Of a DNA stretch of 64,000 nucleotides, positions 25,966 through 55,941 are shown in pieces. The DNA is taken from contig VGDM01000009.1 of the NCBI GenBank assembly GCA_016869715.1, forward strand, positions 1 to 64,000, written 5' to 3'. The notes beneath the pieces were generated by a model that saw only the letters and a list, made by a program, of their open reading frames with translations, had not been told where the DNA came from and made no database searches. The position numbers and the translations under genes were made by a program. Position 1 is the stretch's first letter, and every line of letters starts with the position of its first letter. This stretch comes from Alphaproteobacteria bacterium. Lineage in GTDB: Bacteria > Pseudomonadota > Alphaproteobacteria > Acetobacterales > Acetobacteraceae.

Positions 25966-27015
25966 ATGATGATGCTTGATCGTCGCGGCATTTTGGCGCT
26001 CGGCGCCTGGGCCGCCGCCACCAGCAAGGCCTTTGCCCAAGGCCCAATGCCGGAACATGAGCGTGTGCTTTATGAGGCCGCACGGCGCGAAGGCGAAATC
26101 ACCTGGTATTCCGGCCAATACAGCGCCGAGGCTTCGGAAGCCGCTGGCCGCGTTTTCAATGAACGCTACCCGGGGGTGCGCTGCAATGTAGTGCGCAGTA
26201 CCTCACAAGTGGCATTTCAACGCCTATCTCAGGATTTGCGTGCCGGGGTAGCACAATGTGATGTGCTTTCTTCTACCAATGGCGGGCATTATGCTCAGTT
26301 GAAGCGCCAGAACCGCCTGATGCAATTCCGGCCGAAAAATGCCGATGGATTGCTGACGCCCCTACGGATTGCGGACCCAGATAATTTCTATCAATCCACC
26401 TTCCTTGGCATTTTTCTGCTGGCGCATAATACGCGGCTAGTATCCGAAGCCGATGCACCCAAATTCTGGAAGGACATTCTTGACCCCAAATGGAAGGACA
26501 AGCTCGCGGTCGGGCATCCGGGCTTCAGTGGTGCGATTGGCCTTTGGGCGATGGAGATGCGTCGGCTCTATAGCTGGGATTACTTCAAGCAGCTTGAGCG
26601 CAATAAACCGCAAATTGGGCGTTCTTCCATCGACCCTATCACCACCATGAATGCCGGCGAACGCGGCGTTGGTGTTGCAGTGTCTTCTGCCTCCACGCTG
26701 TTGAGCATATCCCGCGGTAATCCGCTCAAGCTGATTTATCCCGAAGAAGGCGTGCTGGCCGCACTTTCGCCTTCCGCCATTATCCGCAATGCGCCCCATC
26801 CAAACGCGGCGAAGTTGTTCATGGAATTCCAGACAGGCGTTGGGCTTTCAAACGCTATCAGGCTACTATTCAATGAAAGCATCCGCCCGGATGTGCCGCC
26901 ACCGGAAGGTTCGCGCCCGCTTGATCAGGTAAAGATGCTGGCTCCTTCGATTGAAGATGCGGAAAAGGGCGTACCGGAAGTGCGTGACGCCTGGCGCGAT
27001 ACCTTCGGCGTCTGA
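25966..27015 (+). CDS. ABC transporter substrate-binding protein (FbpA/iron-type family 1)
   Basis: A 349-residue secreted protein with leader MLDRRGILALGAWAAATSKAFAQ. The mature part begins MPEHERVLYEAARREGEITWYSGQYSAEASEAAGRVFNERYPGV, the opening seen in ferric or phosphonate binding proteins of ABC importers with a fused double permease. LPFGVKN-type reverse strands in the track are shadows. Three ATG codons in tandem (25966, 25969, 25972) follow GGGGGAAG; the first was taken. The next genes encode the double permease and ATPase, so this is a full FbpABC-like system. Ligand (iron, phosphonate or another) not determined. Confidence 0.88.
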   Translation: MMMLDRRGILALGAWAAATSKAFAQGPMPEHERVLYEAARREGEITWYSGQYSAEASEAAGRVFNERYPGVRCNVVRSTSQVAFQRLSQDLRAGVAQCDVLSSTNGGHYAQLKRQNRLMQFRPKNADGLLTPLRIADPDNFYQSTFLGIFLLAHNTRLVSEADAPKFWKDILDPKWKDKLAVGHPGFSGAIGLWAMEMRRLYSWDYFKQLERNKPQIGRSSIDPITTMNAGERGVGVAVSSASTLLSISRGNPLKLIYPEEGVLAALSPSAIIRNAPHPNAAKLFMEFQTGVGLSNAIRLLFNESIRPDVPPPEGSRPLDQVKMLAPSIEDAEKGVPEVRDAWRDTFGV

Positions 27016-27023
27016 CGCTACCC

Positions 27024-28754
27024 ATGGCTGAAGGCGCTGAGTTGGCTACGGCGCCGCGCGCAGGCTTGCGCGCACGGCTTGCCATGCTGGAACCAGTCAC
27101 GCTGCTTTGGCTCGTGCTGGTTGCGGGCTTGATTTTTCTGGTGGCCGCCCCGTTGCTCAAAATGCTGCTGATCAGCTTTGAGGAACAGGACACCGGCGAC
27201 TTCACGCTAATGAATTACGCCACGGCCTATGGCCGGCAGCGCTATCTGGATGCCTTGCGCAATTCGCTGCTTTTGGGGCTTTTGAGCGCCGCCATTTCCA
27301 CCATCATCGCCGTACCCATGGCCTGGGCGGTTTCGCGGACAGATATGCCGGGCAAGGGTTTCACTTGGGCCATGGTTTTGGCTGCGTTTGTAATGCCGCC
27401 CTATCTTGGCGCCATTGGCTGGATTTTACTGGCCGGCCCCAATGCGGGATGGATAAACCAGGTCTGGCGCGCCGTGACGGGCGCCCAGGAACCGCTGATC
27501 AATGTCTATACATTCGGCGGACTTGCCTTTGTGATTGCGCTGCATTCCTTCCCGCTGGTCTTCATTTTCGTCAAATCAGCGCTGGATCTCATTTCCTCGG
27601 AAATGGAGGATGCGGCGAATATCATGGGGGCCGGGACCTGGACCACCATGCGCAAGGTGACACTTCCCTTGGTTTGGCCTTCCATTCTGGGCGGCTTCAT
27701 TCTGATTTTTCTTGAAACCATTGCACTTTTCGGTACGCCGGCCATCATCGGCATCCCGGCGCGCATCAATGTGGTGACAATACAGCTTTGGCAGTTTTTT
27801 GAAGACCCGGTGCGTGTGGAAGTGGCTGCCGCCTACGCCATTCCGCTACTCCTGATCACAGTTGCGCTGATTGGTGTGCAAAAGCTGCTGCTCTCGCGCA
27901 AGGGCTTTGTCTCCCAGACGGGAAAGGGCAGCGAAAGGCGGCAGCTCAAGCTTGGCCCTTGGCGTTGGGTGCTGTTTGCCTGGTGTTTTGGGGTGGCACT
28001 GCTCGCGGTGCTGAAACCCTTGCTCGTGCTGTTGCAGGCATCCTTCGCCAAGGCATGGGGGCGCGGATTTTCGCTTGATAACCTTACGTTGCGCAATTAT
28101 CGGATGCTGCTTTTTGAACATGATATGGCGCTGCAATCGGCCTGGAATACCATTTGGTTTTCCGCGGCTTCCGCCGGGCTGGCGCTCATCCTGGCGTTGC
28201 TTGTGGCCTATATTGTTGTGCGTCGCCTGATCCGTTTTGCTGATGGCTTGGCCTTTCTTGCCATGGCGCCTTTCGTCATTCCCGGTATTGTCATGGCGAT
28301 CGGCTTCTACGCTGCTTATGCAGGACCGCCGCTGATGCTGTATGGCAGCGCGCTTCTGATCATCCTGGCCTTCACCGCGCGCTTCCTTCCGATTGCCTAT
28401 GCCAATGCGCAAGCCTCCATCCGTGCGGTGCATCCGGAAATGGAAGAAGCCGCGCGCATCCTTGGTTGTGGGCGCCTGCAAACCATCCGCCGCATCACGG
28501 CGCCTTTACTGAAAACATCCTTGCTCGGTGGCTGGCTGATTGTCTTCATCGTCGCTTCGCGGGAATTGTCAGCCGCGATCTTCCTGGTCGGCCCGCGTAC
28601 GCGCACCATGTCTGTTTTGCTCTATGACCTAAGCGAGCAGGGTAATTTCGAATTGGTCTCCGCCTTTGGCGGCATATTATTGGTAATCACCATGGTCTTT
28701 GTCGGTATCGGCATGAAGCTTGTCGGCCGCGATTTCATGCTTCGGAGGGATTGA
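27024..28754 (+). CDS. ABC transporter double permease (FbpB-like)
   Basis: A 576-residue inner-membrane protein with two tandem MetI-type permease halves, as in ferric iron importers. EAA-type loops are visible at SSEMEDAANIMGAGTWTTMRKVTLPLVWPSI (around residues 190-220) and HPEMEEAARILGCGRLQTIRRITAPLLKTSL (around 470-500). Spacing from the binding-protein stop is eight bases, and its own stop (TGA) lies one base before the ATPase start. Confidence 0.93.
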   Translation: MAEGAELATAPRAGLRARLAMLEPVTLLWLVLVAGLIFLVAAPLLKMLLISFEEQDTGDFTLMNYATAYGRQRYLDALRNSLLLGLLSAAISTIIAVPMAWAVSRTDMPGKGFTWAMVLAAFVMPPYLGAIGWILLAGPNAGWINQVWRAVTGAQEPLINVYTFGGLAFVIALHSFPLVFIFVKSALDLISSEMEDAANIMGAGTWTTMRKVTLPLVWPSILGGFILIFLETIALFGTPAIIGIPARINVVTIQLWQFFEDPVRVEVAAAYAIPLLLITVALIGVQKLLLSRKGFVSQTGKGSERRQLKLGPWRWVLFAWCFGVALLAVLKPLLVLLQASFAKAWGRGFSLDNLTLRNYRMLLFEHDMALQSAWNTIWFSAASAGLALILALLVAYIVVRRLIRFADGLAFLAMAPFVIPGIVMAIGFYAAYAGPPLMLYGSALLIILAFTARFLPIAYANAQASIRAVHPEMEEAARILGCGRLQTIRRITAPLLKTSLLGGWLIVFIVASRELSAAIFLVGPRTRTMSVLLYDLSEQGNFELVSAFGGILLVITMVFVGIGMKLVGRDFMLRRD

Positions 28755-28755
28755 A

Positions 28756-29829
28756 ATGCCGCGCCTGACCCTTTCCGGCCTGACCAAGGCCTATGGCAAG
28801 ACCACCGTCGTGGATGCCATTGATCTGACCTTGGAGGAAGGCGAATTCCTGTCACTGCTCGGCCCATCCGGCTGTGGCAAGACAACAACGCTGCGGATGA
28901 TCGCCGGTTTCGTTGAGCCCAATGCAGGCACCATTGCGGTGGATGGCAAAGTGCTTTCCGCACCAGGCGCAGTGCTGCCGCCCGAACGCCGCGGCATGTC
29001 CATGATTTTTCAATCCTACGCCATCTGGCCAAATATGACGGTGGCCGAGAATGTCGGCTTCGGCCTGGCACTCCGCAAATTGCCGAGTGACGAGGTCAAG
29101 CGCCGCGTGGCTGAGATTCTGGATGTGGTGAAAATGGGCCATCTGGCAGCCCGCTATCCGGCCGAGCTTTCCGGGGGTCAGCAGCAACGCGTGGCACTGG
29201 CCCGCGCCATTGTGGTGAAGCCCGCCGTGCTGCTGCTGGATGAACCGCTTTCCAACCTGGATGCCAATTTGCGCGAGGAAATGCGTTTCGAAATCCGCCG
29301 CCTGCATGATGAATTCCGCATAACTACCGTCTATGTCACGCATGATCAGGCGGAAGCCATGGCAACATCGGACCGTATCGCCGTGATGAATGCCGGCAAA
29401 ATAGAACAGGTTGATGCGCCGCATCTGCTTTATACCAAGCCGCGCACCCGTTTTGTCGCGGGCTTTATTGGGCGCACCAATTTATTAGAAGCACGCGTCG
29501 AAGGAAGCGCCTTGCTGCTTGGTGGCCTATCGCTCGGCCCAGCCGCAGCGGTAGGCATTGCGCCGGATGTTTCGGGCGAGGTTCTGCTTTCGCTTCGCCC
29601 ACAAGCGATGAGCCTGCACCTTTCGGAACCGACACAGGACACCCATGTGCTGGTCATGCCCGTTGAATTGCTGGAACGCACTTATCTTGGTGAATCCTGG
29701 GATTATGTGCTGCGTCCGGGAGGTGCGGCACTGCGCTTGCGCGCCGCGGCGCCGCCCCTTAACGCCTATTCGGTCGGCACCAAACTTTGGCTACGGATAG
29801 ACTCACAGCAGATCGCGGTGGTGCGGTAG
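28756..29829 (+). CDS. ABC transporter ATP-binding protein (FbpC/PotA-like)
   Basis: A 357-residue ATPase. Walker A GPSGCGKTTTLRM near residue 38, Q-loop MIFQSYAIWPNMTV, signature LSGGQQQRVALARAI near 137, Walker B LLLDEPLSNLDANLR near 160 and switch His VYVTHDQAEAM. A C-terminal TOBE domain follows, with LSLRPQAMSLH. ATG 28756 is preceded by GGAGGG; the ORF track start at 28720 lies inside the permease gene. Last gene of the three-gene importer. Confidence 0.94.
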   Translation: MPRLTLSGLTKAYGKTTVVDAIDLTLEEGEFLSLLGPSGCGKTTTLRMIAGFVEPNAGTIAVDGKVLSAPGAVLPPERRGMSMIFQSYAIWPNMTVAENVGFGLALRKLPSDEVKRRVAEILDVVKMGHLAARYPAELSGGQQQRVALARAIVVKPAVLLLDEPLSNLDANLREEMRFEIRRLHDEFRITTVYVTHDQAEAMATSDRIAVMNAGKIEQVDAPHLLYTKPRTRFVAGFIGRTNLLEARVEGSALLLGGLSLGPAAAVGIAPDVSGEVLLSLRPQAMSLHLSEPTQDTHVLVMPVELLERTYLGESWDYVLRPGGAALRLRAAAPPLNAYSVGTKLWLRIDSQQIAVVR

Positions 29830-32118: not shown

Positions 32119-33621
32119 ATGAAGACCCCTTTGCTGCTTGCGCTCGATCAGGGCACAACCTCTACGCGCACCATTGCTTTTGGGGCGGACCTGGCGCCGC
32201 GCGCGACCGCGCAGATGGAATTGCCGCAGCATTTTCCGGCCCCAGGCTGGGTGGAACATGAGCCCGAGGATATCTGGCAGGGCGCCATCACAACCATACG
32301 CCAGGCCCTGGAAAAAGCCGGCGGAATTGCCGGTGATGTGGCCGGCATTAGCATTACCAATCAACGCGAAACCACGCTGCTTTGGGATCGCACCACGGGC
32401 CGCTGCCTGCATCGCGCCATTGTTTGGCAGGACCGCCGCACGGCGGATGCCTGCACAAAACTCCGCGCTGAGGGGCATGAGGCGTTGCTAACAGAACGCA
32501 CCGGCCTGCTGGCCGATCCCTATTTCTCGGCCACCAAGCTCGCCTGGATGTTGGACAATATCGCGGGCGCGCGGGCAGCGGCGGAACGCGGCGCGCTCGC
32601 TTTCGGCACGGTGGATTGCTTTCTGCTCTCGCGCCTGACGGGCAGGCGGGTACATGCAACCGATGCCACCAATGCCGCGCGCACCATGTTGTTCGATATC
32701 CGCCGCGGCATTTGGGATGCGGATTTGCTGCGGCTGTTTCGCATCCCGGAAGCCATCCTGCCAGAAGTGCGTGATTGTGCTGGGGATTTCGGCGCGACGG
32801 AACCCGCTTTGCTCGGTGCCGCCATTCCCATTCGCGGCATGGCGGGCGACCAACAGGCTGCCACTATCGGGCAGGGCTGCTTCGCGCCAGGCATGGTGAA
32901 ATCCACCTATGGCACGGGGTGTTTCGCGCTGCTCAATACCGGTGAGGCGCCGGTTGCGTCGCGCAATCGGCTGCTGACGACCATCGCCTATCAATTGCAA
33001 GGCAAGCGGCATTACGCACTCGAAGGTGCCATTTTTGTTGCCGGTGCTGCGGTGCAATGGCTGCGTGATGGCTTGGGCATCATCAGGCATGCGAGGGAGG
33101 CCGGGGTTCTGGCCGCGCAAGCCGATCCCGCGCAGCGCGTGGTGCTGGTGCCGGCCTTTGCCGGGCTTGGCGCGCCGCATTGGGATGCCAGGGCGCAAGC
33201 TGCGATTTTTGGCATAACACGCGGCGCCGGTCGTGCCGAGCTTTGCCGTGCTGCCCTTGAAAGTGTCGCGTTTCAAACACGCGATCTGATCGAAGCCATG
33301 CATGCGGATTGGCAGGGCGCGCGTGAAACCGTGCTCCGCGTTGATGGCGGCATGGTTACTTCCGATTGGACCATGCAATTCCTTGCGGACCAGTTGGGCG
33401 CCCCGGTGGACCGCCCGACAGTGCTGGAAACCACCGCACTCGGTGCGGCCTATCTTGCCGGCATGCAGGCCGGGCTTTGCGCACCGCCAGGTGCGGCGGG
33501 GGCTACGCATTGGCGCCTGGAACGGCGTTTCATACCACAAATGAACCGTGCCGAAGCGGATGGTCATTATGCACTTTGGCGTGATGCGCTTCGCCGCACT
33601 CTTTCGGAACAACCCGCATGA
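32119..33621 (+). CDS. glpK: Glycerol kinase-type FGGY kinase
   Basis: A 500-residue FGGY kinase. [15 protein letters not shown] opens the first actin-like domain, with [29 protein letters not shown] and [13 protein letters not shown] next; [16 protein letters not shown] near 190 and [33 protein letters not shown] near 245-275 match glycerol kinase closely. It should phosphorylate glycerol to sn-glycerol 3-phosphate, or a related polyol. ATG 32119 follows GGGAGGGAAAGG. No glpD, glpF or glpR is nearby; the gene overlaps the next one by four bases (ATGA), so it is coupled to a SelA-like PLP enzyme and an AtuA-type protein, not a glycerol operon in the usual sense. That context makes an alternative substrate worth considering. 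Confidence 0.9.
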
Positions 33622-34799
33622 TTTACGATAATCTTGGCGTGCCGCGCATCATCAATGCCTATGGTACCAATACGCGGCTTTCCGGCGGACTGATGGCGCC
33701 CGAGGTGCTGGCCGCCATGGTAGAAGCCGCACGTGCCACGGTTGAAATGCATCATTTGCAAGCCGCTGCCAGCCGAGACATCGCCAAGGCCACGGGCGCG
33801 GAAGCAGGCATTGTCACCTCTGGCGCTTCTGCCGCTGTGTTGCTGGGGGCAGCCGCCTGCATGGCGCGACTTGATCCGGGCGCGATGAACCGCCTGCCCG
33901 ATACGCGCGGCATGCCGGATGAATTTATCACCATCCGCAGCCAGCGCAATATGTATGATCGTGCGCTGCGCGTCGCGGGCGGACGCATCATTGAAATCGG
34001 CATTCCGGACCGCGTTTCCGGCCCCGGCGTGCGCGATGCCGCGCCTTGGGAAATCGCTGATGCCATCACGGATCGTACGGCAGCAATCCATTACCTCGCT
34101 GGTGCGAATAGTGAGCCACCCTTGCCCGATGTGGTGCGCGTGGCGCGTGAACGGCATATCCCCGTATTGGTGGATGCGGCAGCGCAATTGCCGCCCGCCG
34201 ATAACCTGAAGCGCTTCATCACTGAAGGCGCCGATCTAGTGTGTTTTTCCGGTGGCAAGGCTTTGGGCGGGCCGCAATCTTCCGGCATTCTCGCCGGGCG
34301 GCGCGATCTGGTTTCTTCAGCGCTGGCACAGATGCTTGATCTTGATATGCCGGAAGCGGAGTTCATCGCTCCGCCGGAATTCGCGCCCCTCGCGCAAATG
34401 CGCGGCCTGCCGCATCACGGCATTGGACGTTCTTGCAAAATTGGCAAGGAAGAAATCATTGGCCTGATCATGGCCTTGCGATATTTTGTTGCGGAAGACC
34501 CGGCTGAGCGTAGCGCGCGCTGGCAAGCGCGGCTGGAAGCGGTGCTGGCAGCGGCCGGGCACCCGGACGCATTGCGTCTTGTCCCTGATGGCGCCAAGCC
34601 TGGCCTGCCCATTTTGGAATGGTGCTTGCCCGATGCTACCGCCGCGCACGCCGCAGATGCGCGGCTGCGCGCCCAACGCCCCGCCATTCACCTCGATGCC
34701 GGGCGCTTCAACCAGGGCTTGCTTGCCATCAACCCGATTGCCTTTGACGATAGTGACGCGGCTATACTCGGCGCCGCGATCAAGGGGTGCATGGCGTGA
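33618..34799 (+). CDS. SelA-like fold-type I PLP enzyme (aminotransferase/lyase family)
   Basis: A 393-residue PLP enzyme. The opening [29 protein letters not shown] and the PLP lysine in [19 protein letters not shown] near residue 215 match the family that includes L-seryl-tRNA(Sec) selenium transferase and D-glucosaminate-6-phosphate ammonia-lyase. [15 protein letters not shown]-type sequence (here [14 protein letters not shown]) supplies the Asp that contacts the PLP nitrogen. No Sec genes are seen nearby, so a catabolic lyase or aminotransferase role is more likely than selenocysteine synthesis (inference). Coupled by ATGA to the kinase and by GTGA to the AtuA-type gene. Confidence 0.87.
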
Positions 34800-44197: not shown

Positions 44198-45183
44198 TCA
44201 CTCCGCCGTGGCGCCGGCGTCCCTGACAATCTCGGCCCAAATCGGCATTTCTGCCTGCACAAAGCGGCCAAATTCTTCTGGGCCTTCGCTCGGTAGCGCT
44301 TGTAGCCCTTCATGCGCGAAACGCGCCTGCACGGACTGTTACGCCAATACGGCGCGGAGGGCGCTGAACATCCGGTCCCGGATTGGGTTCGGCAGGCGTG
44401 CTGCGGTCCACACGCCCCACCAGCCAGTGATGTGAAGCGCGGGCAGCCCCGCCGCTTCGCTGCCCGGCACATCGGGAATGACCGGCGATGGCAAACGCGT
44501 GCTGAGTGACAGCGCCTTCAACGTGCCGGCGCGGATTTGCGGTAGTGCCACAGGCGGTGTGCCAACCAGGATTTGTACATCCCCAGCCAGCACGGCTTGC
44601 AGCGAAGGCGCACCACCTTGGAAGGGCACATGAGTAATGTCCTGCCCCGTCACTTTCGCAAGCTTGGCGCCCACCAGATGGCTTGGCGTGCCGATGCCAG
44701 GTGTTGCGTAATTCCTACGCCCCGGTTGCGCGCGCATCCGCGCCGCGAGCTCCACCAGGTTATTGATGCCGGTATCAGCGCGCACGGCGATGATCAGCGG
44801 CAGGTCACTCACGCGCGTGATCGGCGTGAAATCATTGATGGGATGAAAGGGCAGGCGGCGATACATGGCCGGGTTCACCGCATGGGTGAAATTGCCGCCG
44901 AGAAGTTCGTGTAGCCATCCGGCTCGCTCCGCGCGACATGTTCGGCAGCGATATTGGAACCGGCGCCAGGGCGGTTATCCACGATGATGGTGGCGCCGCC
45001 CAACTCGCGCGCCAAAGGATCGCTCAGCGTGCGTGCAGGGAAGTGGCCGGAGCCGCCGGGCGGAAAGCCAACCACAAGCCTGATAGGCCGACCTGCGGGC
45101 CAGACAGCGCCGGATTGCGCGGCGGCGTGCTGGGATGGGGCGAAGACGAACGGCGCGGCAAGGAGGGTTCGGCGGTGAAGCAT
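44198..45183 (-). pseudogene. TctC/Bug-family binding protein, inactivated by a frameshift and a nonsense codon
   Basis: The three pieces reassemble a typical TctC protein of about 328 residues. Piece one runs from ATG 45183 (MLHRRTLLAAPFVFAPSQHAAAQ leader, RPIRLVVGFPPGGSGHFPAR, NRPGAGSNIAAEHVARSEPDGYT). Between about 44890 and 44912 the frame changes; the next piece begins GGNFTHAVNPAMYRRLPF and continues through HVPFQGGAPSLQAVLAGDVQI. At 44339-44341 an in-frame TAA interrupts ALRAVLA-*-QSVQARF; reading through it gives ARFAHEGLQALPSEGPEEF and a natural end AEIVRDAGATAE at 44198. Two separate lesions in one gene argue for real decay over a single base-call error. Confidence 0.9.
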
Positions 45184-45316
45184 TCTTGCTCTCCCGGTGC
45201 TGGTCTTGGTAGGTTTTTGGGGCTGGACCGGGACCAAAACTGACAGGCCGGCGCGGCGCGATCAATCAGGGACCCTACCGCCTTTTAAGGCATTGCGGCA
45301 TCGTGGCAGAGTTGCA

Positions 45317-45992
45317 ATGATGAAAAAATCACCGGGAAGGATCTCTAATAAAGCGTTGTTTTCGCCTACCCCTCCTGTTTTTTTCGATGGCCACATTGTC
45401 AGCTTGCGCTACCGCCACAAGTGGAACCGACCACACCTTATTGGTAGAGTCCGATTCCGTCAGCGCAACTTGCCTCTTGCGTCGCGGGGGCACAAATATC
45501 GCGTCCGTTAATCCCACCCCTGGATCCATGCGCACCAGCAAATCACGCAACGACATTACGGTGAGTTGTGAAAAGGCAAATCATGAGCCGACCAGTAGCA
45601 CCGTCACCGCCGGCTTCCAGGCAATGACTCTGGGCAATGTGTTGATTTGCGGTGTCATCGGGCTGGCTGCTGACCTCGCTTCCGGTGCGGCGATTACCTA
45701 CCCAGAATCGGTCAAGGTGGTGCCCCGGCCACAACGCTTCCCGAGTGGAGCCGCGCGCGATGCGTCTTTTGAGGGGCGGCTTGTCGATACCCGTGCTAAT
45801 TTTGCAAGGCGCATCGAAAGTGCGCAAGGCGCCTGTGGTGGTGCTACGGATCAAAGCTGCTTGCAACGCATTCGCAAATTACGTTATCAGGAACAGGAAG
45901 AAATCGGCGTATGGAAGAACGGCGCGCATCCAATCCGACTGGAACCTGAGGGCGGGAAGTACCTCATGGGGGTACCCGCTTCGCCCCCATGA
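45317..45992 (+). pseudogene. Small lipoprotein of unknown function, copy A (start and lipobox in different frames)
   Basis: The coding frame from 45387 encodes 201 residues but opens MATLSAC, too short for an export signal. Upstream in the same frame there is a good signal stretch, FRLPLLFFSMATLSAC, ending in a lipobox (LSAC), but no start codon before a TGA at 45321. ATGATG at 45317 is in another frame and is followed by AAAAAA at 45323-45328; with five A residues it would read MMKNHREG into that signal. The mature part has a PEGA-like stretch, VNPTPGSMRTSKSRNDITVSCEKA, and a hydrophobic segment VLICGVIGLAADLASGAA. Copy B downstream is a clear paralogue. No function is recognised. It may be functional if the A-run is a base-call error. 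Confidence 0.72.
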
Positions 45993-46044
45993 CCGGCCAA
46001 AGGTCGAGCTTCCGCTGAACATTTTGCAGGATTGGGGGTGATTA

Positions 46045-46632
46045 ATGGTCCAGAAATTTCCGATGCTCCGGCCCATCCGCCAATTCCTGCTGCTCAGCTT
46101 CTTGGCGCTTCTCTCCGGCTGAGCCACTGTAACGACCGGGACAGAGCATGCAATGCTCATTCAGACCGAACCTGCTGGCGCTGCCTGCATCTTGCAGAGA
46201 AATGAGTCGATTTTCGGCGCCGTCAATCCAACCCCGGCTTCAGTACGAAACGGCAAATCGCATCATGATATTCGTGTGCAATGTGAAAGGGCAAATTACC
46301 AAGCGACCAGCAGGCTCGTCACCGCTAGCTTTCAAGCCATGACCGCGGGCAATCTTTTGATCGGTGCGATCATTGGCCTCGCGGCGGATCTAGCCTCTGG
46401 GGCAGCGACAATCTATCCAAAAGGCATCACGGTAGTTCTTTGGCCTGGTAGCTTTTCGAGCCCCGAGGAGCAAAACGCTTTTTACGAGGCAAGGCGCACG
46501 GAAGCCATGGCGGATTTCGTGCAGCGTTACGAAAAAGCGCGCAAGGCCTGCGGACGGCGGATGGATCAGAACTGCCAACAGCGCTTGACTGACTTGCAAA
46601 CAGGCTATCGGCAAGAGAATTGCGCTTGCTGA
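46045..46632 (+). pseudogene. Small lipoprotein of unknown function, copy B (TGA at the lipobox cysteine)
   Basis: ATG 46045, with GGGGGTG five to six bases upstream, opens a leader MVQKFPMLRPIRQFLLLSFLALLSG followed directly by TGA at 46120-46122 and then ATVTTGTEHAML in the same frame to a stop at 46632. LLSG-C is the normal lipobox, so TGA takes the place of the lipidated Cys (TGC or TGT). The rest parallels copy A: VNPTPASVRNGKSHHDIRVQCERANYQ, FQAMTAGNLLIGAIIGLAADLASGAATIYP, then a charged tail with paired Cys. The track's 159-residue ORF from 46153 is the part after the TGA. Most likely a nonsense mutant of a duplicated gene. Confidence 0.78.
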
Positions 46633-46713
46633 TCCAAAGGCGCCGCCAGACGCCTATCAGTTAATTGCGCGCAACCGGAATCAAAGAATAAGTTCAGCCT
46701 CTCATCATCCCGC

Positions 46714-51991: not shown

Positions 51992-52019
51992 GGGCGGTCC
52001 TGCGGGACCGCCCTTTTTT
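51992..52019 (+). terminator. Rho-independent terminator of groESL
   Basis: GGGCGGTCC pairs with GGACCGCCC across a four-base loop and is followed by TTTTTT. It lies 27 bases downstream of the groEL stop. Confidence 0.95.
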
Positions 52020-52169
52020 GTGGTGGGGTTTCGCCTAAAATATTGGCATTGGACTGTTATTTAAGCTGGTTTCCCTTGTAGACTTTGCTTGAGGCTAGCC
52101 TTCCCGGACTCCCTCTTTGGCATGGAAGTTGCGAAAGACACTCGTCGGCTGAAGGATGCAACGCTCACG

Positions 52170-53249
52170 ATGGCTACCCAGAGTTCGGCCTCTCAGCAAT
52201 TGCTGCTGAACGGCATTGTTCATAGCTACGGCGCCGCGCGCGCCGTTGATGAAGTGACGGTTGAAGTGAAGGCGGGCGAATTGGTGGCCCTGCTTGGTCC
52301 TTCCGGCTGCGGCAAGACGACCTTGCTCCGTATTGTCGCTGGTTTCATCCGACAGGCTTCCGGCCAGGTTGTCATTGGTGATCGCGCCGTGGATGATCTG
52401 CCGCCCAACTTGCGTGAAGTCGGCATTGTGTTCCAGAACTATGCGCTGTTTCCGCACATGACGGTCGCTGAGAATATCGCCTATGGCCTGGTGGCGCGCG
52501 GCGCGGGCAAGGCCGAACAACGCGCGCGCGTGTCGGAAATGCTCGCCACCGTGCGCATGGCAGGCTTTGCCGATCGCAAGCCGCGGCAATTGTCAGGCGG
52601 GCAGCAGCAGCGCATCGCGCTCGCCCGCGCGCTTGCGGTGCAGCCGCGCATTCTGTTGCTGGATGAACCCTTCGCGGCGCTCGATAAGAATCTACGGCTA
52701 GATATGCAAATTGAGATTAAGCGGTTGCAGCGCCAATTCGGCTTGACCGCCATTTTGGTCACGCATGATCAGGAAGAAGCCATGTCCATCGCCGATCGCA
52801 TCGCGGTGATGAATCAAGGCAGGATCGAACAATTGGGCACGCCGGTTGCGATCTATGACGAACCCGCGACCCCCTTCGTCAATAGCTTCATCGGATCATC
52901 CAATATCCTTGATGGTATCGTCACTGATGCCGGGATCAGGCTTTCGGTTGGCGCTTTGCTCCCCTGCCAAACGCCCAACCTGCCACAGGGCAAGCCCGTT
53001 CAGGTTTCCATTCGGCCGGAGCAATTGATGCTGGTGCGTGACGCCGCACAGGATCGCATTCCGGTGACGCTGACACTCAGCCTGCCGATTGGTGGGCATT
53101 TCATCCATGATGTCGCGGCGGCGGATGGCAGCACGCTTAAAATCGCAACCGCGCGGCATCCGGGTGATGCTTCCACCCTGCCGGGCATATGGCATTGCGC
53201 GCTGACGCCGGAAGCGCGGCCTTCGATCTTTCCCCAATCCAACCCGTAA
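52170..53249 (+). CDS. ABC transporter ATP-binding protein (PotA-like)
   Basis: A 359-residue ATPase. Walker A LLGPSGCGKTTLLRIVAGF near residue 38, Q-loop VFQNYALFPHMTVAENIAYG, signature RQLSGGQQQRIALARAL near 135, Walker B ILLLDEPFAALDKNLRL near 160 and switch His VTHDQEEAMS. A C-terminal domain with VQVSIRPEQLMLV (TOBE) follows. ATG 52170 fits MATQSSASQQLLLNGIVHSYG; ATG 52122 and the track's TTG 52089 would add 16 or 27 residues. It heads the four-gene polyamine-like importer. Confidence 0.92.
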   Translation: MATQSSASQQLLLNGIVHSYGAARAVDEVTVEVKAGELVALLGPSGCGKTTLLRIVAGFIRQASGQVVIGDRAVDDLPPNLREVGIVFQNYALFPHMTVAENIAYGLVARGAGKAEQRARVSEMLATVRMAGFADRKPRQLSGGQQQRIALARALAVQPRILLLDEPFAALDKNLRLDMQIEIKRLQRQFGLTAILVTHDQEEAMSIADRIAVMNQGRIEQLGTPVAIYDEPATPFVNSFIGSSNILDGIVTDAGIRLSVGALLPCQTPNLPQGKPVQVSIRPEQLMLVRDAAQDRIPVTLTLSLPIGGHFIHDVAAADGSTLKIATARHPGDASTLPGIWHCALTPEARPSIFPQSNP

Positions 53250-53267
53250 CCCTTCAGGAGAATTCCC

Positions 53268-54281
53268 ATGGTTTCCAGACGTCGTTTTCTTGCCGGCATG
53301 GCCGGTGTGCTTGCCGCGCCCAGCATTGCGCGTGCCTCCGGTTCCATGACGGCGGCCATCTATCCTGGCACCTGGGATGAGGCCTATCGCGAAGTTGTCG
53401 CCCCCCTGTTGCGTCAGCGCTATAATGTGAGCGTTGCCTTTGAACCACTATTCGCGGTGGATCAGGTTGCGAAGGTGCGCGCCGCGCGCGGTGTCGCCCC
53501 TTTTGATTGCTTCGTTCTGGACCCCGGCCCGGCGGCAGCGGCGCGTCAGGCGGGGCTGTTTGAGCCGATTGACCCGCGCATGATCACCAATGTCAGCAAG
53601 CTGCCCGATGGCATGCTGATGGCGGATGCGGCGACGGTGAATGTGCAAGTGGTCGGCATATGCTACAACCCGAAGAGATTCCCGGAACCTCCGAAAAGCT
53701 GGGCGGATTTGTTCCGCTCACCCTATGTGGATCGCCTCGGCCTCACGGGGTTTCAGACCACTTTCGGCACCGTATCGCTCATTGAAATGGCGAAGGTTTT
53801 TGGCGGTTCCATCACCAATGTCGAACCGATCTTTGCCAAGCTGAAAGAGGTGCTGCCGAAGGTTGCCGCAGTATCCACGCCGGCCGCCTTGCCGGGCCTG
53901 TTCCAGCAAGGCCAGATTGACATCATGTATACCAACACAAATAACGCGGCGACGCTGAAGGGCCGCGGCGTTGACATTGCCTTTGTCGCGCCGAGTGAAG
54001 GCGCTGTTACCTTTGCAACAACACTGCATATCGTAAAGGGTGCTGAGAACAAGGCCAATGCGCATCGCTATATTGACGTAGCGATTTCGGCCGATGCGCA
54101 AAGCAAGCTACAATTGGCGCCCTTCAACATGATCCCGGTGAACAAGGATGTGCAGCTGACACCCAACCTGGATATCAAATCACTCGATGAATTGTCCAAG
54201 ATGGTCACGCATGATTGGAATGTGATCAATCCGCGCCGCGCCGGTTGGATTGATCGCTTCAACCGCGAAATCACGAAGTAA
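53268..54281 (+). CDS. ABC transporter substrate-binding protein (PotD-like, family 1)
   Basis: A 337-residue secreted protein with leader MVSRRRFLAGMAGVLAAPSIARA. After it come MTAAIYPGTWDEAYREVVAPLLRQRYNVSVAFEPLFAVDQVAKVRAARGVAPFDCFVLDPG, PPKSWADLFRSPYVDRLGLTGFQTTFGTVSLIEMAK and QGQIDIMYTNTNNAATLKGRGVDIAFVAPSEGA, the layout of the spermidine/putrescine or similar cationic-compound receptors. CAGGAG lies seven bases before ATG. It stands between the ATPase and two permeases; ligand unresolved. Confidence 0.9.
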   Translation: MVSRRRFLAGMAGVLAAPSIARASGSMTAAIYPGTWDEAYREVVAPLLRQRYNVSVAFEPLFAVDQVAKVRAARGVAPFDCFVLDPGPAAAARQAGLFEPIDPRMITNVSKLPDGMLMADAATVNVQVVGICYNPKRFPEPPKSWADLFRSPYVDRLGLTGFQTTFGTVSLIEMAKVFGGSITNVEPIFAKLKEVLPKVAAVSTPAALPGLFQQGQIDIMYTNTNNAATLKGRGVDIAFVAPSEGAVTFATTLHIVKGAENKANAHRYIDVAISADAQSKLQLAPFNMIPVNKDVQLTPNLDIKSLDELSKMVTHDWNVINPRRAGWIDRFNREITK

Positions 54282-54285
54282 TTTC

Positions 54286-55119
54286 ATGCGCCCAGCAGCG
54301 GTGGATTGGCGCTTGGCCGCGCCTTTGGGGATTGTCTACCTCGCGCTTTTTGCGGCACCGCTGCTGTTGTTGCTTGGCATATCGCTCCATGCGGATCAGG
54401 ATTTGCAGCAATGGGGCTTGGATAACTGGTCCAAATTCTGGGGCGATGCCTTCTACCGCGGCGTTGTCTGGGATACGCTTAGGCTGGGCGCGGCGGCGGT
54501 GCTGGCGACGTCCCTTTTCGCTTGGCCGCTCGCGGTATTCTTCTGCAATGCCAGCCCCCGCACGCAGAAGATCCTGATTTTCATCATTCTGCTGCCGTTG
54601 CTGACATCGGTCGTTATTCGCACCTTCGCATGGATCGTGATCCTGGCGCGGGAAGGGCTGGTCAATCAGATGGTGCTGGCGCTTGGCCTTAGCGCCACAC
54701 CGCTCAGGATATTGCAGACGGAAACGGGGCTTATCCTGGCGCTGATGCAAATCGAAATGCCACTGATGCTGCTGCCCTTGATTTCCGTCATGCGCGGGCT
54801 TGATCCAAATCTGCCCGATGCGTCACGTGCGCTTGGGGCAGGCATGTGGCGGAGCTTTTTTCGCGTCATCCTGCCGCTCAGCCTGCCAGGTTGGATCGCT
54901 GGCGCCACCTTGGTTTTTGCTTCCGCCTGCACGGCCTTCATTTCGCAATCCGTCATTGGCGGGGCGCGGCTTGTCTATCTGCCATCGCTGATCTGGCAGC
55001 AGGCCATGGTGGTTTATGATTGGCCCTTCGCTGCCGTTTGTTCTGTGACGCTGCTGGCGACCGTGCTGGCCGGCATCATGATGCTGAATTGGCTTGGCCG
55101 CTATGCAAGGACCGATTAA
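54286..55119 (+). CDS. ABC transporter permease (PotB-like)
   Basis: A 277-residue inner-membrane permease with six helices. LLPLLTSVVIRTFAWIVILAREGLVNQMVLALGLS near residues 100-135 and the EAA-type loop LPDASRALGAGMWRSFFRVILPLSLPGWIAGATLVF near 180-215 fit PotB. ATG 54286 fits; the track's start overlaps the binding-protein gene. The next permease starts directly after its stop. Confidence 0.91.
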   Translation: MRPAAVDWRLAAPLGIVYLALFAAPLLLLLGISLHADQDLQQWGLDNWSKFWGDAFYRGVVWDTLRLGAAAVLATSLFAWPLAVFFCNASPRTQKILIFIILLPLLTSVVIRTFAWIVILAREGLVNQMVLALGLSATPLRILQTETGLILALMQIEMPLMLLPLISVMRGLDPNLPDASRALGAGMWRSFFRVILPLSLPGWIAGATLVFASACTAFISQSVIGGARLVYLPSLIWQQAMVVYDWPFAAVCSVTLLATVLAGIMMLNWLGRYARTD

Positions 55120-55941
55120 ATGAGGCAACGTCGCACCTTTGCCGACCAAAGCTTTTCCTATGTCTTTGGGGGGCTTACTTTGCTTGGCCTGCTGATCCTG
55201 GTTGGCCCGGTATTGATTGTGCTGATTACGAGTTTCACCACCTCGGCATCCTTGCGGTTTCCGCCGCCAGAAATGTCGCTGAGGTGGTATCAGGCGCTGT
55301 TTGACACAACGCGGTCTGCGCATATCCATCGCGCTGCCGGCAATTCGCTTTGGGTGGCTGGCATGGCAACGCTCGGGGCCACAATGCTGGCCGTGCTCGC
55401 GGCCCTTGCCATTGGGCGGTCGCGTCGGCCAGCGGCACGCGCCTTGGAAGCAAGCTTTCTGTCACCGTTGATCCTGCCCTCGCTCGCTTATGGGCTCGCG
55501 ACCTTGATGTTTTTTTCGTTGCTTGGGCTACGCCCATCGCTCACGCATTTGATCGGGGGGCATTTGGTGGTGATTGCGCCTTTTGTGTTCCGCACCACCT
55601 TGGCGACCGTCACGCAATTGGAACCGGCGCTTTTGGAAAGCTCCGCCAGCTTGGGGGCAGGGCACTTCATGACCTTCCGGCGCATTACGCTTCCCCTGAT
55701 TGCGCCAGGCATTTTCGCTGGCGCCTTCCTCGCCTTCGTGGCCTCCATGGATAATGTGCCGGTCTCGCTTTTCCTCTCCAGCGCGCGGACGGATATGCTG
55801 CCCATCCGGATGTGGGGCATGATGGAAAGCACGCTGGATGTGCGCGTTGCTGCCGTATCTGGCGTGCTTATTCTGGCGATATTGGTGCTGATGTTCGTGA
55901 TGGATCGGCTGACCGGGCTGACGCGCCGGATGAGTCTCTAG
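55120..55941 (+). CDS. ABC transporter permease (PotC-like)
   Basis: A 273-residue inner-membrane permease. LEASFLSPLILPSLAYGLATLMFFSLLGL near residue 108-136 and LLESSASLGAGHFMTFRRITLPLIAPGIFAGAFLAFVASMDNVPVSLFLSS near 165-215 are the PotC-type helix and EAA loop. Its ATG follows the PotB-like stop without a gap. Last gene of the importer; a convergent maf gene follows seven bases on. Confidence 0.92.
   Translation: MRQRRTFADQSFSYVFGGLTLLGLLILVGPVLIVLITSFTTSASLRFPPPEMSLRWYQALFDTTRSAHIHRAAGNSLWVAGMATLGATMLAVLAALAIGRSRRPAARALEASFLSPLILPSLAYGLATLMFFSLLGLRPSLTHLIGGHLVVIAPFVFRTTLATVTQLEPALLESSASLGAGHFMTFRRITLPLIAPGIFAGAFLAFVASMDNVPVSLFLSSARTDMLPIRMWGMMESTLDVRVAAVSGVLILAILVLMFVMDRLTGLTRRMSL

Follow-up and report, generated by a model that had tools for sequence, protein, structure and literature searches.

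Apparent recent decay of a three-gene cluster encoding a TTT-family receptor and two tandem lipoproteins in a Roseomonas-like bacterium

A 64,000-nucleotide stretch of DNA from a Roseomonas-like bacterium of the Acetobacteraceae (hereafter the window) very probably contains a recently decayed cluster of three genes, namely tctC and two paralogous lipoprotein genes (copies A and B), in which the start codon of copy A has been lost as ATA. Normal translation of copy A would be lost because its start codon is ATA where its orthologues have ATG. Transcription from the leader promoter may persist, with copy A left without a standard start (the downstream ATG at 45387 would give a signal-less product), translation of copy B expected to end at its lipobox and the receptor gene broken; we infer that the normal proteins are missing from the cell. 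The elements discussed below are the following.

45293..45321, + strand: putative promoter, TTGCGG - 17 nt - AATGAT, in a register common to the leaders of relatives
45316-45321, + strand: -10-like hexamer AATGAT, overlapped by the ATGAT of ATGATG
45323..45328, + strand: run of six A residues (A6) in the non-coding leader, 5' of the ribosome-binding site; its length and presence vary among relatives
45337..45341, + strand: AAGGA, Shine-Dalgarno-like by sequence, 6 nt ahead of ATA
45348..45350, + strand: ATA at the position of the orthologues' ATG start, the lost start of copy A by leader alignment
45348..45949, + strand: lipoprotein copy A, decayed by orthologue comparison (no standard start and a C-terminal frame break)
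46063..46664, + strand: lipoprotein copy B, decayed by orthologue comparison (TGA at the lipobox and a C-terminal frame break)
44198..45183, - strand: tctC, solitary TTT-family periplasmic receptor (PF03401), decayed, divergent from copy A

The leader and start codon of copy A

The original prediction described a lipoprotein-signal frame without a start, lying behind an ATGATG and a run of six A residues, and a reading of the sequence bears out this layout. Two adjacent ATG codons (45317-45319 and 45320-45322) are followed by A6 (45323-45328) and then a T. The frame of the ATG at 45387 is preceded by an in-frame stop, the TGA at 45321-45323, and stays open from 45324. Its translation, KNHREGSLIKRCFRLPLLFFSMATLSAC, is a signal of the lipoprotein type that ends in LSA/C. 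The signal encoded in this frame (KRCFRLPLLFFSMATLSAC) is without a standard start codon, and between 45324 and 45387 the sequence contains zero in-frame ATG, GTG or TTG codons. ATGATG is out of register with the signal (45317 mod 3 = 2, 45387 mod 3 = 0). Initiation at the 45387 ATG would leave only MATLSAC, which is too short for export, as had also been predicted. Copy A does encode a lipobox (...MATLSA/C), the cysteine of which is invariant in 13 sequences, orthologues included. A T7 run at 45378-45384, longer than A6, lies within the signal-coding part, with the same frame on either side and no shift.

Orthologues of copy A were identified in seven congeneric genomes (G005, G007, G015, G020, G044, G045 and G046), three of which have copy B in tandem with it. 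All seven orthologues begin with ATG, 12-14 codons ahead of an xxLSAC motif. The leaders of four (G046, G007, G020 and G015) can be aligned directly with that of the window, and their ATG coincides with the window's ATA (45348-45350); the start context is AATGAAG or GATGAAG in orthologues, as opposed to AATAAAG in the window. At the position of the window's AAGGA, orthologues carry GAAGGA, GGAGA or GAGGAG. Since the orthologous ATG falls on the ATA, the start was lost by change of this codon rather than through a shift in the A-run. The orthologue comparison that had been proposed as a check aligns ATGATG-A6 with non-coding leaders and does not support the idea that the A-run separates a start from its signal.

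The leader alignment further identified a TTGCG-N17-hexamer arrangement in one register in five genomes (that of the window, G046, G007, G020 and G015), with the hexamer variants AATGAT, GATAAT (G007), AAAGGT and GATGGT. A consensus promoter scan returned no promoter above threshold. The alignment suggests that ATGAT forms part of a -10 element, and transcription probably begins downstream of the ATGATG codons, which probably never served as the start codon of copy A. The -10-like element is equally present in relatives with an intact gene.

We also established how often such an arrangement would be expected. In 400 kb of the same genome, read in stretches, we looked at the sequence that stays open ahead of each long ORF's first in-frame ATG, to a limit of 120 nt; 156 of the 311 ORFs have an out-of-frame ATG there. 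An upstream out-of-frame ATG is, by itself, close to chance and carries little information; a one-base indel could formally link such an ATG to the gene at many loci. A or T runs of at least six number 12 in the window and 90 in the 400 kb.

Copy A resembles phase-variable contingency genes in that a homopolymer close to its 5' end separates an upstream ATG from an open signal frame, and slippage in A6 as an on/off switch for copy A had been offered as an alternative. We regard this as extremely improbable. Contingency tracts belong to genes that are otherwise intact and lie within the coding sequence or the promoter spacer, whereas A6 is short, lies 3' of the -10-like element and 5' of the orthologous start, in a non-conserved leader outside the gene as defined by its orthologues, and precedes a gene that is frameshifted further on. 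In intact relatives the ATG is downstream of the tract: G007 has A7 at the same position, but its gene is intact, begins at an ATG of its own and is joined to no start by this run, while G046 has the identical AATGAT without an A-run and its gene is likewise intact. The window's ATG codons moreover overlap the putative -10 element, and the C-terminal frameshift of copy A would persist through any switching.

Lesions in three consecutive genes and their surroundings

Copy A is also broken at its other end. Orthologues end in QEEIRRxEERR....GT, and in the window the frame breaks between ~45902 and 45907, with an orthologue-like tail (RRMEERRASNPTGT) in another frame that ends at 45949; the open frame of copy A continues past the break to 45992. 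Copy B carries an in-frame TGA (46120-46122) exactly where orthologues have the TGC codon of the lipobox cysteine, and its frame breaks near 46608-46617, followed by an orthologue-like tail in another frame that ends at 46664. In tctC the frame shifts at ~44890-44905 and is cut short by a nonsense codon at 44339-44341; the gene is intact in five relatives (G005, G007, G015, G045 and G046). All three genes thus have disabling lesions when compared with intact orthologues at the syntenic locus. The original prediction is supported in that both paralogues have lost normal export by independent lesions, but not in its A-run mechanism; the ATA at 45348-45350, the frameshifted C-termini of A and B and the broken tctC were absent from it.

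Recoding of the copy B TGA as selenocysteine was considered and rejected: no tRNA-Sec was found in the genome, and its single above-threshold RF01852 match is a tRNA-Ser(tga) according to ARAGORN. A SelA model (PF03841) gave a partial 36-bit match inside an intact 393-aa gene (33618-34796, + strand), the product of which is probably another PLP-dependent enzyme.

The window is syntenic with G046 from 25 to 62 kb, and parts of it with G005, G045 and G020. Comparison with these four genomes shows no break in about 40 genes on either side (38 kb), at ~85-99% amino acid identity. These genes were chosen by ORF and homology, and several flagged antisense ORFs were set aside by inspection; ORFs flagged as broken (for example 38567, 40653, 22961 and 33576, antisense or start-extended) were judged to be artefacts, with either an intact sense gene at that position or a stop before the start. 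Two segments, 26000-29800 and 52000-55500, are not matched in G046 within the region of synteny and may represent insertions or lineage-specific genes. An Rfam scan of the window gave no matches.

Six disabling lesions were found, all within tctC, A and B, which together make up 2.1 kb of coding sequence; this clustering has a naive P of 2e-8 if placement were random. Scattered sequencing error would not be expected to hit three consecutive genes in this way. The lesions are known from one assembly (3.55 Mb in 196 contigs, ~5% contamination), and a low-coverage or mixed-strain patch could in principle have introduced them into genes that are intact in the organism, a reading with which the low whole-branch dN/dS values given below would agree. 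We consider such assembly errors very unlikely, because the six lesions and an excess of amino acid replacements occur only in these three neighbouring genes, no such lesions being seen in the ~38 kb of flanking genes, and because the lesions mix substitutions with frame breaks and the lost start lies outside any homopolymer.

No further copies of the genes were found elsewhere in the same genome. Copies A and B (45300-46700, compared with G045 and G005) show ~65-80% DNA identity, as against ~80-94% for the flanking genes. This high divergence from the relatives' copies is also seen between intact orthologues and may reflect fast evolution or allelic exchange.

Selection on the window lineage

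Two-ratio codon models, implemented in a custom script, were used to compare the window branch with the rest. dN/dS on the window branch and elsewhere was 0.15 and 0.11 for copy A, 0.14 and 0.17 for copy B, and 0.09 and 0.05 for tctC; the difference was not significant for any of the three genes in these models. Neutrality over the whole window branch was rejected by the codon models. The low dN/dS counts against decay, which must therefore be recent relative to a long branch; a recent loss would leave such values.

Unique changes at invariant columns are more sensitive to recent decay than is whole-branch dN/dS. In tctC, the window has 10 unique amino acid changes at invariant columns, compared with 0-4 in other lineages, and three D-to-H changes in the window's tctC fall at invariant positions; the ratio of amino acid to synonymous changes is 10:9 in the window versus 8:46 (p = 0.002). 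Copy A has nine window-unique changes at otherwise invariant columns, compared with 2-6 in others, and six of its unique changes are radical, compared with 0-2 in others (p = 0.01). These tests of unique changes were picked after the data had been seen and are supportive only.

The same values bear on whether AUA, by way of the retained Shine-Dalgarno sequence, still directs weak translation of copy A into a lipoprotein whose C-terminus is altered. In some bacteria AUA supports initiation, though less efficiently, and the AUA start codons of ccpN and citZ in Staphylococcus aureus reach roughly 10-30% of AUG expression (PMC13009471). Copy A resembles these genes and infC, which belongs with them among AUA/AUU-start genes (PMC13009471), in having a Shine-Dalgarno sequence and then AUA at the start position, with AAGGA 6 nt ahead of the ATA, and its window-branch dN/dS of 0.15 is in keeping with continued translation. 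The starts of infC, ccpN and citZ, however, are conserved or expressed (PMC13009471), whereas copy A orthologues use ATG, AUA is the orthologous start in none of the relatives examined, and copy A is broken again downstream, with a C-terminal frameshift and its six radical changes at otherwise invariant positions; both of its neighbours are broken as well. Low-level translation from AUA accordingly seems very improbable to us, and it is less probable still that this species retains copy A for weak expression, with translation throttled by AUA and the C-terminus of the lipoprotein altered.

The best reading of the three genes is instead as ordinary recent pseudogenes. They share with recent bacterial pseudogenes several independent lesions, intact orthologues in place, an excess of replacements at conserved sites and the lack of a further copy elsewhere in the genome; nothing about them is unusual by comparison, except that here three neighbours are affected together.

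The intact lipoprotein and the neighbourhood

In relatives, the intact lipoprotein comprises ~200 aa, and an AlphaFold model of the G046 orthologue (pLDDT 77) places a beta-sandwich at the N-terminus and a helical hairpin at the C-terminus. Searches of Pfam, NCBIfam and PDB sequences with the intact lipoprotein identified no family above cut-off. PEGA (PF08308) was the best Pfam match, at 14.6 bits against a curated cut-off of 20.8, a score that leaves the protein outside that family. The intact orthologue resembles PEGA-type surface lipoproteins in its lipobox and N-terminal beta-sandwich, but differs from them in this sub-cut-off score and in the extra C-terminal helical hairpin. With the G046 model, the matches from Foldseek were immunoglobulin- or transthyretin-like but only weak, with E above 0.001 throughout, and no close solved structure was found; a literature search found nothing on this lipoprotein family. 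In several genomes the lipoproteins adjoin a divergent, solitary tctC, a gene arrangement that is at most suggestive of a link between them.

The case of copy A illustrates how a lost start may be wrongly blamed on an apparent homopolymer frameshift, although the codon that actually changed lies further into the sequence, and how aligning orthologues resolves the start assignment in such a case. The joint decay of a divergent neighbourhood, made up of a TTT-family receptor and two paralogous lipoproteins, hints that these proteins may share a common, dispensable function.
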